This document shows positions 56,280-64,000 of a stretch of DNA of 64,000 bases, piece after piece. Each line of letters begins with the position of its first letter. The first letter of the stretch is position 1. A program made the position numbers and the translations under genes. The notes beneath the pieces were generated by a model. It was not told where the DNA came from. It ran no database searches and saw nothing but the letters and a program-made list of their open reading frames with translations. The stretch is taken from assembly GCF_028640845.1 (NCBI RefSeq), contig NC_080541.1:158356502-158420501 (forward strand). Reading direction: 5' to 3'. The stretch is from Ahaetulla prasina (lineage: Eukaryota > Chordata > Lepidosauria > Squamata > Colubridae).

Positions 56280-57960
56280 CCCATGCTACAAGGTAATACC
56301 CATTAGATTCCCCCTTTGTCCAGCATTCAGAGTAAGTCACCAAATGTACAACTTAGGTTGTGATGAAGAGTTGCCCCCTCCCATTTTGCTTGTCATGAGA
56401 GTTATTTTAATTTTAAACCAATTTAATACCGTGTCAGCTTCGATAATGTCAGTGTCACCACCACACCTTCCTGCTGCGGAGCAATTGCAGCAATTGCCGA
56501 AGTCTTGCTGCAATTGCCTAATACAGTGGCCAAGCATGTCACTGCTCATAATTTAAGCTTGACATTGGGAAGATTAATTTACTGTGAAAATGACCCTCCA
56601 GAGACCAGCCTAGGCACTAGATGAATCATAGTTTAAAAATGGGATATTTTGGTGGTTTCTGAACTTCTAATTAAGTCTTTCAAAGAACCATGGATTGTAC
56701 ATTAGTGATAACCTCTTCTGTTTCCCCAGGGACCTGAAACATGCTCCATGGCTGACAATAGTATGACATCTGGAATTCAACCCATAGCTGGCAAATTAAA
56801 CTTAGAAAGTTATCTGATATTATTGGTATTTCAAGGATCTTTCGAGATGTTTACAAAATGCTGTGACACCAGCAACAGATATTCAAATATTCACACTCAG
56901 GGAACATCTACAGTTTCACTATGCCATGTTTTACTAGTAAACAATGTAGAATATATTCTAGCACTTATGATAAAATACTTCCCTTTTTTCTTTCATACTT
57001 GGCTACTATTATCCTAGGTGTTAGCTGAACTGTATGGGGATCATACATCTGGAAAACCAAACCTTTTTGTACTTCCTTTCCCAATAATGGTTTCAGACAT
57101 GTCTTGAATCTTTCACTATCAAGGTAGGACTGCTCAGGTAATACCTTAGATTTTGTTTGAAGTAAATCATATTAATCATCTATAGAAATGATTTTTTTCA
57201 GTGCTCACCTTTTGTGCAGCAGGACTGGATTGATAATATGAGGAATATGAGATTACATTGTGATTCATCACTGCTGTATTCTGAAAGATACACGTGGCTT
57301 TTGAAGATTAATCCCCTGTCCCTTTATACTGTGTATTTGCACAATATTAGGATTTGATCTTAACAGATGAACAGTATCGCTCGCTGTGCCTACCAACCAG
57401 TCTTTTTTCCTCTGACTTTCTCCTTTTGTTCTTTTACTATATCAATTTATTTAGATGACTATCTATCTCTATTTATCTATTCTCAGAGGTGATGAACAGA
57501 CAGTACAATTTACTATACTGAACATCTAGAAATCCGGTCTTATTTTATATATAAAATGTCATTTCTCTTAGCTTTGTTGAGTCAAAATCGAGGGAAATTG
57601 GAAAGGGCAAAGGCTTGGTGAAGGATAATACTTCAATATATTTCTTATCCTGAATTAGCCAAACATTCATTAATTACTGTATAAATTGCATTACAAACCA
57701 AACCAAACCAAGAATAGCCCTTACAACAAATGCACTTTTATAATATCGTCACTTAAATAGCTTTGACTGTTTGCTTCTCTAGTGAGCCAAAACAATATTG
57801 TATTTTCAGTCCTCTACTGAGAACTGAGACTTCCTGCCACAGGGTCTTTAGCTATTGCAAATTTAAGGGTACCATAAACTAGCAAACAAAAATCCCCAGT
57901 TGTAGGGGCAGCCTCAGTGCAGACACCCACATACAATAATTTGCAACAAAATCTAGAGTA
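56280..57960. other. No gene or recognisable element
   Basis: Mostly unique AT-rich DNA. Several GCAATTGC palindromes cluster at 56485-56520, and AAACC repeats occur near 57695-57710. Confidence 0.5.
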
Positions 57961-58112
57961 GAAAAATGTATTCAGTGGAGCAGCTGAATTCTCAGAGCCA
58001 TTTGTCATTCAGGGTGAGTACAGGCAAAGCTTTCTCAAACTGTTTTACGGGGAGGGGATTGCTCCACAGTGACATGTCTATCAGTGTCACTAAGACTTGC
58101 TCATCTACCTTT

Positions 58113-58146
<34 letters not shown>

Positions 58147-58263
58147 CATCCATCCATCCATCCATCCATCCATCCATCCATCTATCTATCTATCTATCCA
58201 TCCATCCATCCATCCATCCATCCATCCATCCATCCATCCATCCATCCATCCATCCATCCATCC

Positions 58264-58342
<79 letters not shown>

Positions 58343-58483
58343 CATCCATCTATCCATCCATCCATCTATCCATCCATCCATCCATCCATCCATCCATCCA
58401 TCCATCCATCCATCTATCTATCTATCTATCTATCCATCCATCCATCCATCCATCCATCCATCCATCCATCCATCCATCCATCC

Positions 58484-58542
<59 letters not shown>

Positions 58543-58588
58543 CATCCATCTATCCATCCATCCATCTATCCATCCATCCATCCATCCA
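58113..58588. repeat. (TCTA)n/(TCCA)n array with higher-order period
   Basis: 476 bases of TCTA and TCCA tetranucleotides in alternating blocks. The irregular block starting TCCATCCATCTATCCATCC is found at 58341 and again at 58541, exactly 200 bases apart, with matching flanking blocks. All three plus-strand frames stay open (LSIY/PSIH repeats) only because the period contains no stop; none is a gene. Confidence 0.97.
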
Positions 58589-58599
58589 AATTGGGCCCT

Positions 58600-59595
58600 A
58601 GGTTCTATCTCGGTTTACCTTTTTCAATAAGCAACCAAGTTCAAAGATCATTTAAATAGCAATTTATAGTTCTCTGATAATGTGTGGTTTCCCTATGAAA
58701 AGGGGGAACCCCAAGAAATGGATTAAATGTACTTTTATAGTTAACACAACAAAGAACTTCAAAGCAAAAGCTGATTGGTTTAGAAATAGTCATCTGTTCA
58801 GTTACATCACAAGAATTACAGCATAGCCATAAGAAAGAGCATTGTACTGTCAGCAAAAATAAAAGAAACATTTGCAAATGAAAATCATAAAAATGGGTTT
58901 GGGTAAGATACACTCTCAGCGCTTCTCAAGGTTGGCTTAACTATTTGACTAGTTCACGGAGTCTTGAGAACAGCTAAAACCAAAACTGTTATTGGCAATG
59001 TATTTAAAGCTGTCCTGCCAGTCTTGGTTCCTGAAAGAGAGGCTTTTTCTTGAAGGTTAAGGTTTATGGGAAATTATTAACCATACAATTGAAAAAGCAA
59101 ATTTAAAATACAAGAAAACCCATTTTAATTAGCCAGTGCAACAGTATTACAAGAACCATGTTTCAAGTGCTACAAAGGCCATCCTCTGTGGCTCTCACTA
59201 TAGTTTATTAATAGCTTCTTTCTTAGCATAAAATACAAACAGAAATAAGGACAATGGAAAAATGGGAAAGCAGAGGAAATAAGTGAGGGAAGGGGGCGGG
59301 GGAGAGATATTGAATTTAATAGCTGGAACAGTCAAGTGTGCAATAGGGCAGAATCCACAATTGTAGTTGAATAGTTAGAGAGTCCTGATCATGCATGATG
59401 CAATCTATGCTATGATTTGGTTGCTGTAAGTATAACGTGTAAAGGGGGAGTTTCCCTTTTCCCCCTTTTTCTTATGTGTGTTCTGTATAGTGTTAGGTTT
59501 ACCTTATGATGTTCCTCTGTTCCTCACTATCTTGTGTTGTTTCTTTTTGGATGATGACAAAAACTGCTGTATAAATTTAAATGTGTATGTGTGTG
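58600..59595. other. No gene or recognisable element
   Basis: AT-rich unique-looking DNA right of the tetranucleotide array. Confidence 0.5.
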
Positions 59596-59596
59596 A

Positions 59597-59810
59597 TATA
59601 TAATAATAATAATAACAGAGTTGGAAGGGACCTTGGAGGTCTTCTAGTCTAACCCCCTGCCCAGGCAGGAAACTCTACACTATTTCAGAGAAGTGGTTAT
59701 CTAACATTTTCTTAAAAATTTCCAGTGTTGGACCATTTGCAACTTCTGCAGACAAGTTGTTCCACTTATTGATTGTTCTTACTGTCAGGAAATTTCCCCT
59801 TAGTTCTAAA
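59597..59810 (-). mobile_element. CR1 LINE 3' end, minus strand
   Basis: On the minus strand: AGGGGAAATTTCCTGACAGT, then the ORF2 end, then GACTAGAAGACCTCCAAGGT and CCAACTCTGTTATTATTATT. It is the same CR1 lineage as 12.0-12.8 and 22.2 kb. Its truncated 5' end abuts the 5' end of the plus-strand CR1 at about 59813. Confidence 0.9.
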
Positions 59811-59824
59811 AAAACTGCGCATGT

Positions 59825-59837
59825 CCAAGATGGCGTC
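59825..59837 (+). promoter_or_regulatory. YY1-like site at CR1 5' end
   Basis: CCAAGATGGCGTC lies about a dozen bases from the presumed first base of the CR1. It matches the YY1 core AAGATGGCG, which in human L1 sits at the same place and sets the transcription start. The function here is inferred from motif and position. Confidence 0.5.
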
Positions 59838-59844
59838 GCGCCGC

Positions 59845-61140
59845 TGATCGAGAAATGTGGCAGCGAGCCTTCCTGGATGTTTCTGGGCTAGGGGGACCCT
59901 TTTGAGATCTTGGGTCCCCCTGCCCAGGTGGATGAGCATCTCCTCAGCCCGGGGATGCTGAGGTGGGTTTTGGGCGGCTCCAGGTGGCTTCAGGAGGAGC
60001 CCAGGGTGATCTCCCATAGCGGTAGTGGCGGCGTTCTACTTCTGGTGGCGGCGGCCTGGTCTGGCCTGGTCGGCCTGATGCGGCCTGGTCCGGCCTGGTC
60101 CGGCCTGGTCCGGCCTGGTCCGGCAGCTTGGCAGTCGGGGGAGCAATGCCGGCGCCGGTGGCGTTGTGGCCGTCAGCGGCAGCAGGCCTCTTTAGATCGG
60201 CTCGGGGAACCCTTTGGAGAGCTTGAGTCCCCCGTCTGGGCCTCGGGAGAGCGTGACCAGAGCGTTTTCTCCGGTGGCGTTTTCTCCGGTGGCGTCTCTC
60301 TCCGGCGCCGGCAGCGGCCTGGCCTGGCAGCGGCCTGGCCTGGCCTGGCCTGGTTCGGTGGCCGGCATTGGCGTCAGTGGCTTGAGCTGGGGGGTGGGGA
60401 CCCTGTGGAGATCTTGGGTCCCCCCCACCTTGGGTGAGAGGGCCCCCCTCCAGCCTGGGGGGCAAGGAAGGCTCCGGACGGCCTCATCTGGGGCCAACTG
60501 GAGTGTTTCTTCTCCGGCGGCACCCTGGCTTGGTTGGGTGGCACCGGTGTTGGCGGCTCCAGCATCGGACGTCGACGGAAGATGACGCCCGGATGTTGGC
60601 AGCGACTGTGGCAGTATGGGTTTTTTGTGCCTGGATGCTGCAGCGGCCCCCAATGGCCCCCAGGGCTACTCTGTTTAGATGGGGGTGCCGATAGTGCCGA
60701 CGGGGGTGCCCCCCCTTTTTTTTGTAAGCTGGCTGGGATGTGGAATTGACATCTGCAGCGAGCCGGCGGGAGAGATGACGGCGACTGACGACGGTGCCGG
60801 GCTGCTGATGCTACCAACCAGCAATGGCAGGGTTCCAGTTGCTGCCCTCCCCCCACTCCAGCGATGCCAATGATGAAGATCCGTGCCACGGATTCCCCCC
60901 CCAGGTGGAGCTGAGATGGAGCCCATGGAGTCCATGAAATTGGAGGACTCGCCCTTTCCTCCCCCCCCGACCACGCTTGGATTGCCCATAGAACATTATC
61001 AAGCCTCAGTCTGTTGTCATCGGCAGCCAAATTAGTGGCTGCAATTCTCGAGGCTCGATGGGGATGGGGGTGATCTGTTGTGGTGCTGAGTTGACTGAAT
61101 AAGGCGGGGACTATCCCATCTAAAGCCTGAGACTGAGACT
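59845..61140 (+). repeat. CR1 leader with imperfect monomers and short tandem repeats
   Basis: GAGATCTTGGGTCCCCC at 59903, GAGCTTGAGTCCCCC at 60218 and GAGATCTTGGGTCCCCC at 60409 mark three diverged monomers. Between them are (CCTGGTCCGG)n at about 60055-60124, CTCCGGTGGCGTTTT repeats at about 60268-60300 and (GGCCTG)n at about 60315-60355. Overlapping frames of 100-218 codons on both strands result from the CpG-rich composition, and none has a recognisable domain. Confidence 0.7.
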
Positions 61141-61147
61141 GAGACGG

Positions 61148-61372
61148 ATGTCCATCGACTTTCCCACCCGGAGATATCCTGACCGTCCAGGATGGGTCTG
61201 CTTGCCGTGTTTTTTCATCATGCGGACATTTTCAGCGGCTGACCTTCTTGCCCTGCGAGATTCCCCTCTCTCACGGGTTTGGCCCTCTACATTATCGAGG
61301 GCCATCTTGAGGATGGGTTTTGGAACCCCGAGAGGTGGCATGCCAAGAATAGGAGACTTAGGGGATTTTTAA
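61148..61372 (+). CDS. CR1 leader ORF with eIF4E-binding-like motif (frame 1 of 2)
   Basis: A 74-codon frame starting at ATG 61148; an in-frame TAA a few codons upstream supports this start. Residues around 27-44 read FSAADLLALRDSPLSR. This fits the eIF4E-binding consensus Y-x4-L-Phi with Phe in place of Tyr, followed by the basic/Pro/Ser pattern seen in 4E-T (EIF4ENIF1). After about codon 48 the match continues in the neighbouring frame (see next entry), so this copy probably has a one-base indel. The position between leader and ORF2 is where CR1 elements carry ORF1. No other ORF1 domain (PHD, esterase, RRM) is visible. The role, if any, would be binding the cap-binding protein; this is inference. 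Confidence 0.5.
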   Translation: MSIDFPTRRYPDRPGWVCLPCFFIMRTFSAADLLALRDSPLSRVWPSTLSRAILRMGFGTPRGGMPRIGDLGDF

Positions 61373-61530
61373 TTAACTGTTTTAACCGATTTTTTAAGGG
61401 GAGTTTTAATGGGAATTTTACGGGGAGGGTGGAAACTGACGGGTTTGGGTTGGGGGGGGAGGGGAAGAACGGGTGGGGAGGGAAACCCGTCGGGGAGGGA
61501 GCCAAGTCCAATGTGTGTTCGCGGCGTTAA
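61279..61530 (+). CDS. CR1 leader ORF, second frame with 4E-T-like DGFWNPERWH
   Basis: Open without an ATG from 61279 to a stop at 61528-61530. Near its start it reads GHLEDGFWNPERWHAKNRR, then a stretch rich in F and N, and ends in a Gly/Lys-rich tail. DGxWxPExWHA is, from memory, the segment that follows the canonical eIF4E-binding motif in 4E-T. Its distance from the FSAADLL motif in the other frame equals that in 4E-T, which argues that the two frames are one broken gene of about 127 codons. The Gly-rich tail overlaps a run of G-tracts. Confidence 0.5.
   Translation: MALYIIEGHLEDGFWNPERWHAKNRRLRGFLINCFNRFFKGSFNGNFTGRVETDGFGLGGEGKNGWGGKPVGEGAKSNVCSRR
61441..61500 (+). promoter_or_regulatory. 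G-quadruplex-prone tract
   Basis: Successive runs GGG TTT GGG TT G8 A G4 within 25 bases, followed by further G3-G4 runs, satisfy the standard four-run G-quadruplex pattern on the sense strand just upstream of CR1 ORF2. Confidence 0.6.
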
Positions 61531-61732
61531 GTTAGGTCCGAGGGTGGTGGGGGAGGGTTTCGTTCCAGCTTATCAGGGTTGTGCTATTGATATGGTAAGT
61601 GGGAGAGGCAGATATGGCAGAAGGGGGGGGCACATCAGGTTTTGGGAGTACGCTCTCGCTATTTAAGAGCGATCACATGCTCCGGCCCCCCTACTTCTTC
61701 CCGTTCCCCGGGTGGCCAGAGTACTCGGGACT

Positions 61733-61863
61733 TGGGCCTCCGGCTGATGTTATGCAATGCAAGGTCCGTGGTTAACAAAGCCCCCCTGATCTCAAATCTA
61801 ATTCAGGAGGGGACCACGGACGTTATGGGCATTACAGAGACCTGGTTGGGCACGGAAGGGGGG
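61733..61863 (+). pseudogene. CR1 ORF2 endonuclease start, cut by LTR
   Basis: The frame reads [20 protein letters not shown] and [11 protein letters not shown], the first two conserved blocks of the CR1 APE-type endonuclease (Asn and Glu of the active site). The frame then runs into the LTR at 61864. The last 41 bases recur to the right of the LTR. Confidence 0.85.
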
Positions 61864-62411
61864 TGTTGTGACCCAGGTTCCTGGACCCGGACTCCTGGAC
61901 TCGGATGATTCAGAAAGTGAGGGAGAAGACCTGGCAAGCCCTGCTTCTCTTGAGCCCTCTCCCTCTCTGGCACCCACTCAAAGGGAGGAGGAGGGGCCGG
62001 CAAGGCCTGATTCTCTGGAGCCTTCTTCTGATTTGGCAACGCCCCAAGAACAGTTTTGGAGTGATGCAAGACTGCGCAGACGTGACCGGCGCGCGCAGCA
62101 GAAGCAGCGTTGGGATAAAGCCAAGTAATAATTGTCATGCAGTGACATCTGCAGAGACTATAAATAGGAGGCGGGACTTCCTGGTTTTTTGTCTTGGACA
62201 AAGCAATGAATTTGCGTGGGCAAACTGTATCAATGGAGGGAAGAATATATTCGTGAGTAATTCTGGCCTTATCTATAATTTCCTCGTTATCTCCAGAAAC
62301 TTGGCAGGCCCGTGGGTAGACGTGGCCAGGACATCTATCTATGTAAATAAAAGGAAAAAAGGAGGCCTCTGACTGACTCTTTGCTGGGAGTATTGGGGAG
62401 GAAACAGAACA
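61864..62411 (+). mobile_element. Solo LTR (548 bp)
   Basis: Starts TGTTGTGACCCAG and ends AAACAGAACA (TG...CA with TGTT/AACA ends), flanked by GGGGGG on both sides. It contains a TATA box in GACTATAAATAGGAGGCGGG at about 62157-62176 and AATAAA at about 62346. No internal retroviral region is attached, so it is a solo LTR. An acidic open frame occupies the U3 part. The parent family is not recognised. The 3' two-thirds are duplicated at 63371-63690. Confidence 0.75.
61868..62128 (+). CDS. Acidic open frame within LTR U3
   Basis: About 86 codons without an ATG, ending at TAA 62126-62128, just before the promoter. The first two-thirds are rich in D, E, S and P ([15 protein letters not shown], then repeated SLEPS blocks). 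The end is strongly basic ([20 protein letters not shown]). A biased composition that ends just before the TATA box suggests the C-terminus of the parent element's last protein reading into its 3' LTR, as in some gypsy and spuma-type elements. No domain is recognised. Confidence 0.4.
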
Positions 62412-63370
62412 GGGGGGTTATGGGCATTACAGAGACCTGGTTGGGCATGGAAGGGGGGGTTCCCCTCGTTGAAATGTGCCCACCGGGTTTCTGAGCATTC
62501 CATCAGCCGAGGGCCCAAGGTAGGGGTGGTGGGGTGGCGGTTATTATTAATGAAAGCCTGGAACCGAGGGAGACCACTGTACCTCAGATAGCTGGTTGTG
62601 AATCCCTCTATGTGAAGTGGGGTCGTAGGACTCAGGTGGGCTTGTTGATCACGTACCTGGCTCCTTGCTGCGTGATAACAGCCCTGCCCAAGCTGTTGGA
62701 ATTGTTGGCCGGGTTGGCAGTTGAAACCCCTAGACTGTTGGTCATGGGGGATTTCAACTTGCCATCAACTGGTGTGGCATCCTCAACGGCTCAGGAGTTC
62801 ATGGCTTCCATGACAGCCATGGACCTGACTTAATTAGTGGACGGCCCTACCCACATCGGGGGAGGCACTCTAGATCTGATTTTTGTCTCTGGCCAGTGGG
62901 CGAATGATCTGATTTTAAATGATTTAGTTATCGAGCCTTTGTCATAGTCAGATCATTCTCTTCTTCGTGTGGACTTTCGGACCGCTACTCACCACCGCAG
63001 GGAGACGGAACCAATGCGTTGGTTCCGTCCCAGGTGCCTGATGGACCCAGAGAGGTTCCTGACGGAGCTTGGGCCGTTTCCCGAGAACCTGGCCCGCGGC
63101 ACGACTGAAGAACTAGTTCCCTGGGAACAGGCCGTGGCTGGAGCTTTGGACCGTGTTGTGCCTTTGCGGCCTCTGACCCGGCGCATTTCTCAACCAGCTC
63201 CTTGGTTCTCGAAGGAGCTGAGGGAGATGAAACGCCGGAGAAGATGCCTAGAGAGAGCCTGGAGATCCAGCCGTTCTGAGGCTGACCGGACACTAGTTAG
63301 GTCCTATAGTAGGACCTACCTAGTGGCACTGAGGGAAGCAAAGCGTTCTTAGGTTTCCTCCCTCATTGCG
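62095..63370 (+). repeat. Tandem duplication G, copy 1
   Basis: A unit of about 1,277 bases: the 3' part of the LTR followed by the CR1 endonuclease. It is repeated from 63371 to beyond the window end. The joint at 63371-63385 shares CAGCAGAAGC between CR1 and LTR sequence. Confidence 0.92.
62462..63352 (+). pseudogene. CR1 endonuclease domain, broken
   Basis: A frame at 62534 carries VAVIINESLEPRETTVPQI and VMGDFNLPSTG (metal-binding residues) and stops at 62830. After stops, a frame at 62969 has VDFRTATHH (just after the SDH motif) and the linker ISQPAPWFSKELREMKRRRR. Three TAG/TAA stops interrupt the 330 codons. It is the same family as 41300-41953, where the domain is intact. It would nick target DNA in an active CR1. 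Confidence 0.87.
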
Positions 63371-64000
63371 TCAGCAGAAGCAGCGTTCGGATAAAGCCAA
63401 GTAATAATTGTCATGCAGTGACATCTGCAGAGACTATAAATAGGAGGCGGGACTTCCTGGTTTTTTGTCTTGGACAAAGCAATGAATTTGCGTGGGCAAA
63501 CTGTATCAATGGAGGGAAGAATATATTCGTGAGTAATTCTGGCCTTATCTATAATTTCCTCGTTATCTCCAGAAACTTGGCAGGCCCGTGGGTAGACGTG
63601 GCCAGGACATCTATCTATGTAAATAAAAGGAAAAAAGGAGGCCTCTGACTGACTCTTTGCTGGGAGTATTGGGGGGAGGGAAACAGAACAGGGGGGTTAT
63701 GGGCATTACAGAGACCTGGTTGGGCATGGAAGGGGGGGTTCCCCTCGTTGAAATGTGCCCACCGGGTTTCTGAGCATTCCATCAGCCGAGGGCCCAAGGT
63801 AGGGGTGGTGGGGTGGCGGTTATTATTAATGAAAGCCTGGAACCGAGGGAGACCACTGTACCTCAGATAGCTGGTTGTGAATCCCTCTATGTGAAGTGGG
63901 GTCGTAGGACTCAGGTGGGCTTGTTGATCACGTACCTGGCTCCTTGCTGCGTGATAACAGCCCTGCCCAAGCTGTTGGAATTGTTGGCCGGGTTGGCAGT
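63371..64000 (+). repeat. Tandem duplication G, copy 2 (cut by window end)
   Basis: Matches 62095-62721 with only a few changes, including three extra bases in the G-run near 63671-63680. It contains the LTR 3' part (to about 63690), then the CR1 endonuclease start. It continues past the window. Confidence 0.92.

Follow-up and report, generated by a model that had tools for sequence, protein, structure and literature searches.

The eIF4E-binding region of 4E-T (EIF4ENIF1) consists of a canonical (C) motif, a linker and a non-canonical (NC) motif. The human fragment 4E-T(1-68) is reported to bind eIF4E at 2.7 nM (PMC10618305), and 4E-T peptides that carry both the C and the NC motifs displace eIF4G (PMC4164784). 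Binding of 4E-T to eIF4E is described as stabilising deadenylated mRNA, and eIF4E1b and 4E-T are linked to dormant maternal mRNA (PMC10883267). The NC motifs of different 4E-BPs are reported to have no sequence in common (PMC4164784; PMC10618305). In LINEs of the L2 and CR1 lineages, additional coding parts are sometimes placed 5' within a single ORF, and one L2 subgroup, comprising 13 sequences, is assigned to type V with the entry 'No hits' (PMC4120745).

The window, a stretch of 64,000 nucleotides of Ahaetulla prasina DNA at C3:158356502-158420501, carries a LINE copy in which two overlapping frames contain the pair of 4E-T-like motifs that an earlier note had pointed out (Table 1). The translation of the frame at 61124-61372 reads ...FFIMRTFSAADLLALRDSPLSR, with the Met codon at 61220-61222 and the Phe codon at 61229-61231, and that of the frame at 61243-61530 reads ...EDGFWNPERWHAKNRR, with the Asp codon at 61312-61314. 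The offset from Phe to Asp is 83 nt, which is 28 codons minus one base, against 84 nt in in-frame copies. The first motif had been read as an eIF4E-binding motif with Phe for Tyr, and this reading holds, with Pro at +12 and Ser at +14 both as in 4E-T; the second motif fits the corresponding 4E-T segment, as claimed. The LINE probably starts near 59811, since 8 of the 20 other loci start no more than about 10 bases from the equivalent point in an alignment to L011, and a leader of about 1.4 kb precedes the module. The end of an antisense repeat, which we take to be CR1-like, lies directly 5' of the LINE start (59602-59806). The endonuclease is the only ORF2 enzyme that falls inside the window, and PF03372 matches it at 62495-62830 with an E-value of 3.4e-4 and 20.9 bits, below the cut-off of 24.5.

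At 61865-62419 the endonuclease region of this LINE is interrupted by an insertion whose ends look LTR-like by eye (TG...CA). The 3' part of the insertion and the endonuclease stretch are duplicated in tandem, about 1.28 kb apart (62090-63365 and 63370-64000), and the second unit continues beyond the end of the window. A long tetranucleotide repeat at 57957-58601 gives one peptide pattern in three frames.

Table 1 Features of the LINE copy in the window
Feature	Position	Strand	Remark
LINE 5' end and leader	59811..61219	+	probable start at 59811; leader end set at the first Met of the module
4E-T module, first piece	61220..61276	+	MRTFSAADLLALRDSPLSR; canonical eIF4E-binding motif, Phe replacing Tyr
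Inter-motif linker	61277..61311	+	contains the frame change of the window copy
4E-T module, second piece	61312..61344	+	DGFWNPERWHA; 8/11 identical to snake 4E-T
Short ORF1 tail including stop	61345..61530	+	family majority sequence has a separate short ORF1 here
ORF2 frame start	61591..61864	+	frame 61591-61908; L030, L043 and L046 start alike
ORF2 endonuclease region, resumed past the insertion	62420..63347	+	PF03372 match

A search of the 1.77 Gb assembly with the 383-base segment of the window gave 2,965 first-look candidates, 40 of which were scored and show identities of 91-100%. The family of the window's LINE was compared in 21 copies from this one genome, namely the window copy and 20 other loci. 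The segment is present in all of the 20 other loci fetched, and 17 of them have both motifs in one frame, mostly as M[RQ]TFSAADLLALRDSPLSRVWPSTLSRAHLEDGFWNPERWHAKNRRLRGF. Phe and Asp are 28 residues apart in all of these 17 loci except L026, where the spacing is 27. L018 has a stop within the second motif, the reading frames of L027 and L028 are broken in other ways than that of the window copy, and DRFW or EDRFW stands in place of DGFW in L013 and L021. The one-base frame shift of the window copy is found in none of the 20 other loci and is a property of this copy; a one-base indel explains the frame change, as had been supposed. The majority sequence of the 21 copies encodes a short ORF1 of about 103 residues counted from MRTF, followed by a stop and, further on, by the ORF2 frame. 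The start Met of this ORF1 is putative; the ORF is longer if an upstream Met is used, and such a Met can be in frame. The earlier note had asked whether the consensus has one frame with Tyr at the motif: the majority sequence has the motif pair in one frame, but all copies read have Phe and none has Tyr. At a single locus, L013, the ORF1 segment occurs twice on the same strand, about 1.8 kb apart.

The paired motifs of the window reach a BLOSUM score of 84 against a best of 35 in 20 first-order Markov simulations, and the second motif alone scores 60 against a simulated maximum of 32. The judgement that chance is unlikely stands for the pair but not for the first motif alone, which scores 24, lies within the simulated range of 23-33 and would not stand out by itself; the evidence therefore comes from the profiles and the linker, together with the second motif and its pairing with the first. 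Scanned separately against Pfam, the two window frames match nothing. Joined with X, they match PF10477 over profile positions 1-42 with an E-value of 9.3e-5 and 22.0 bits, below the curated cut-off of 28.5 bits. L011, the best intact copy of the window's family tested, also scores below it (E 1.4e-5, 24.7 bits), and the other six of the seven proteins tested, from L030, L038, L039, L040, L043 and L046, are above it with E-values of 8e-9 to 3e-7. PF10477 has zero matches to ten controls (five shuffles and five reversals of five modules). A chance likeness, or a stray EIF4ENIF1 retrocopy beside the window's LINE, would fit a copy that is frame-broken and has no Pfam match in either frame alone. 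However, the module is shared by all 20 other loci fetched and by diverged sister families, which rules out the retrocopy, and the Markov simulation and the clean shuffled and reversed controls rule out chance resemblance, so that either explanation has a negligible probability.

A profile of nine LINE modules, searched against 177,635 distinct PDB sequences, gives six hits at E ≤ 10. The top five are all eIF4E-binding entries, namely a designed 4E-BP (7e-4), Drosophila 4E-T 4ue9 (1.1e-3, aligned through GFW), Thor (0.04) and two eIF4G peptides (0.15 and 0.34), and the sixth is a ribosomal protein (E 1.3). When the window ORF1 alone is the query, the best PDB hit is the designed 4E-BP (0.085) and the next, at 0.37, is an unrelated protein. 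The 4E-BP profile PF05456 matches LINE proteins weakly, with E-values of 0.14 and 0.27. A protein database that includes vertebrate proteins returned nothing at E ≤ 10 for the window ORF1 and for residues 1-120 of P0001, the protein of L030. Viral contigs searched with ORF1, the endonuclease piece and the module alignment, and prokaryote genome contigs searched with ORF1 and the module alignment, contain no confirmed relatives; snakes are not expected in either collection.

Genome-wide, PF10477 gives 66 matches, of which 5 are on C15, in the host gene, and 61 are at dispersed places, all 61 above the cut-off and at profile positions 1-42 to 1-46. The number 61 is a lower bound because 67 of 14,857 first-look candidates were scored. 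Nineteen of the 61 places were read (L030-L033 and L035-L049), and all of them have the module as copies of related LINEs. The canonical motif Y-x4-L-Phi is found with its Tyr in 18 of the 19, and L046 has Phe. By eye, these copies fall into at least five groups besides that of the window, exemplified by L030 (MYSRSQLLNLRVSPLSRTWPSTLSRAYLDDGFWNPERWHA), L038 (MRYSSTDLLQLRGSPASQEWPSKLSRAYLNEGFWDPERWHA), L039 (MYSAAELLGLRDSPFSQKWPSTLSRAYLDDGFWNPERWHA), L040 (MYSAADLLSLRESPLSQMWPSMLSRAYLDDGFWNPERWHA) and L046 (MTFSHNQLLALRDAPLSRVRPFSLSRAYLDDGFWNPERWHA). In the Tyr families, Tyr is often residue 2 with little upstream sequence; it comes immediately after the presumed start Met in 12 of the 19 places read, and 7 of the 19 continue into the start of the endonuclease. 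The genome-wide PF10477 matches, the PDB profile search and the alignment to 4E-T support the proposal that this LINE holds a host ligand module. Of the three outcomes that the earlier note named as refuting its reading, none was observed.

The open frame of L030 spans 1,115 codons, or 1,103 when counted from the Met preceding Tyr, and P0001 matches PF10477 (3e-7), the endonuclease profile PF03372 (4e-10) and RVT_1 (2e-36). In the L030 family, the module forms the N-terminus of a predicted endonuclease/reverse transcriptase protein of 1,103 residues. The placement of the module in a separate ORF1 is right for the window's family but does not extend to the L030 family, where it begins an ORF2-type protein. 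Because P0001 matches PF10477 at positions 1-43 of 663 and has nothing for positions 44-663, the LINE protein is not a 4E-T orthologue. L031 and L033 are 96-98% identical to L030 across the shared ORF, and hence the family looks fairly young; the 3' tail of L030 looks L2-like. Downstream of the module, a variable tail is followed by a common I[CD]TV[SGQ]GRGRYGG stretch in six of seven aligned copies, the seventh being shortened. The GRGRYGG stretch is kept across diverged families (L030, L031, L043, L046 and L048) and may be an RNA-binding RG motif.

Between eight family representatives, dN/dS over 47 codons ranges from 0.12 to 0.66 with a median of about 0.28, and it is below 1 in all 28 pairs; the inputs are single copies, each with later decay. 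The mean identity between families is 0.73 for the module and 0.51 for the tail (21 pairs each). We conclude that these LINEs carry a module that, as far as its sequence can tell, is derived from 4E-T and is probably kept by selection.

The EIF4ENIF1 exon of the Ahaetulla prasina assembly reads SDGVWDPEKWHASLYPNSGRTSPVESLKKELDSDRPALIRR, the same as in the corn snake. The spacing of 28 residues, which the earlier note had given for 4E-T, is present in actual 4E-T proteins such as corn snake P0077 (RYTKEELLDIKEHPQSKQRPSCLSEKYDSDGVWDPEKWHA). Seven LINE modules align with snake 4E-T without gaps and are identical at 16-19 of 39 positions. The first part of 16 positions accounts for 4-6 of these identities, the linker of 12 for 4-5 and the second motif of 11 for 8. 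Shuffles of the linker alone equal the observed score in 19-90 of 20,000 trials, depending on the family. A linker Cys that is conserved in 4E-T, where its role is described in PMC10618305, is absent from the LINE modules. The LINE families have common residues that are missing from 4E-T (WPS-x-LSRAYL and, in the majority, NPER), suggesting a single capture. The LINE module of 39-44 residues is almost certainly homologous to the eIF4E-binding region of 4E-T and conserved.

Many proteins contain canonical motifs, which are short, and the score of the window's first motif alone would allow that an unrelated LINE peptide gained eIF4E-binding motifs independently. Such convergence is opposed by the match in the linker and by the equal spacing. 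Furthermore, because NC motifs are reported not to be shared among different 4E-BPs (PMC4164784), the 8 of 11 identities between the NC motif of the LINE and that of vertebrate 4E-T are telling, and we consider independent gain highly improbable. The host gene encodes the Tyr motif at C15:1875026-1875100, and its next exon begins after an AG at about C15:1880517, immediately ahead of DGVW. An intron of about 5.4 kb thus separates the two motifs in the host, and the LINE has both motifs without it; the module would therefore have been copied from spliced host 4E-T mRNA. Transfer in the opposite direction, in which vertebrate 4E-T gained its N-terminal part from a LINE, would be in keeping with the dissimilarity of fly and vertebrate 4E-T NC motifs stated in PMC4164784. 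However, the LINE profile can already be aligned to the 4E-T of Drosophila through GFW, the 4E-T module is near-identical in mammals, birds and reptiles among the 120 proteins listed, and the intron is in the host copy and not in the LINE, so that this direction has a very low probability.

The module very probably binds eIF4E, judging from its sequence, and would contact the eIF4E surfaces that 4E-T uses; homology and binding, taken jointly, are likely. The Phe of the window's family may make binding weaker. To our knowledge, LINE biology still lacks an answer to two questions: by what means a LINE protein recognises the mRNA that encodes it, and by what means that mRNA is released from the ribosome to serve as a template. 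A tentative proposal is that a vertebrate LINE lineage captured the eIF4E-binding part of 4E-T from host mRNA and retains it at the N-terminus of its retrotransposition protein, and that each protein clamps eIF4E on the mRNA from which it was made, thereby setting cis-preference. Because the module is the first part of the new protein to emerge, it would engage the cap-bound eIF4E of the mRNA under translation. Displacement of eIF4G by the module would stop initiation on the LINE mRNA, and the cap would be shielded from decapping. The module would then tether the enzyme to its own RNA, so that an RNA used for translation is turned into a stable RNP ready for reverse transcription. Oocytes, in which dormant mRNA is stored by eIF4E1b and 4E-T, are a possible setting. 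If this is true, the element itself contains the switch that takes its RNA from translation to reverse transcription, protects the RNA and gives cis-preference.

The module might instead act in trans, competing for eIF4E as a 4E-BP does and thereby lowering host cap-dependent translation or disturbing the mRNAs of 4E-T. Consistently, a 4E-T fragment of residues 1-180 is reported to reduce general translation without silencing a tethered mRNA (PMC3950672). However, LINE proteins are presumably too scarce for a global effect, which would call for large amounts, and where the module is fused to the enzyme in one frame no small free competitor is made; we regard action in trans as unlikely. Another view is that the module mainly takes the element RNP into P-bodies or germ granules via eIF4E or eIF4E1b, as 4E-T carries eIF4E to P-bodies and eIF4E1b binds 4E-T strongly in oocytes (PMC10883267). 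Because P-body targeting of 4E-T is reported to require its C-terminal part (PMC3950672) and the LINE match is confined to the N-terminal end of PF10477, such targeting as the main role is rather doubtful. The sequence is equally compatible with all three modes of action; a clamp on the element's own cap is our working proposal. With a conserved eIF4E clamp at the N-terminus of a LINE protein, both questions would become testable by single-residue changes whose effect in 4E-T is known.

Within a literature search that left most subscription papers and all bioRxiv preprints outside its scope, nothing was found that links eIF4E or 4E-T to a LINE protein. The ORF1 types I-V of the L2 and CR1 lineages resemble the present case in having additional N-terminal coding segments that differ through domain exchange; the domains described for them in the available part of PMC4120745 are RRM, CCHC, coiled coil/Tnp22, PHD and esterase, with eIF4E unmentioned. 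Similarly, the ORF1s of L2 sub-clades are described as non-homologous and recruited from other sequence, and the available part of that source mentions neither eIF4E nor a link to it or to 4E-T (PMC7140322). The present LINEs would be a case of a mobile element that has adopted a host translation-repressor module, and the match of their N-terminal segment to 4E-T suggests that the element took over a host switch for mRNA silencing and storage. A 4E-T module may also explain some of the LINE ORF1s that are currently left unclassified as type V. Other 4E-BPs (Thor and the designed 4E-BP) and eIF4G are alike in having Y-x4-L-Phi followed by R..SP, whereas their non-canonical parts are different. 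The closest likeness is to 4E-T (PF10477), with which the LINE module shares the canonical motif, the linker and the non-canonical motif without gaps and the distance of 28 from Tyr or Phe to Asp. Unlike 4E-T, however, the LINE protein matches no DDX6- or P-body-targeting part and continues into an endonuclease and a reverse transcriptase.
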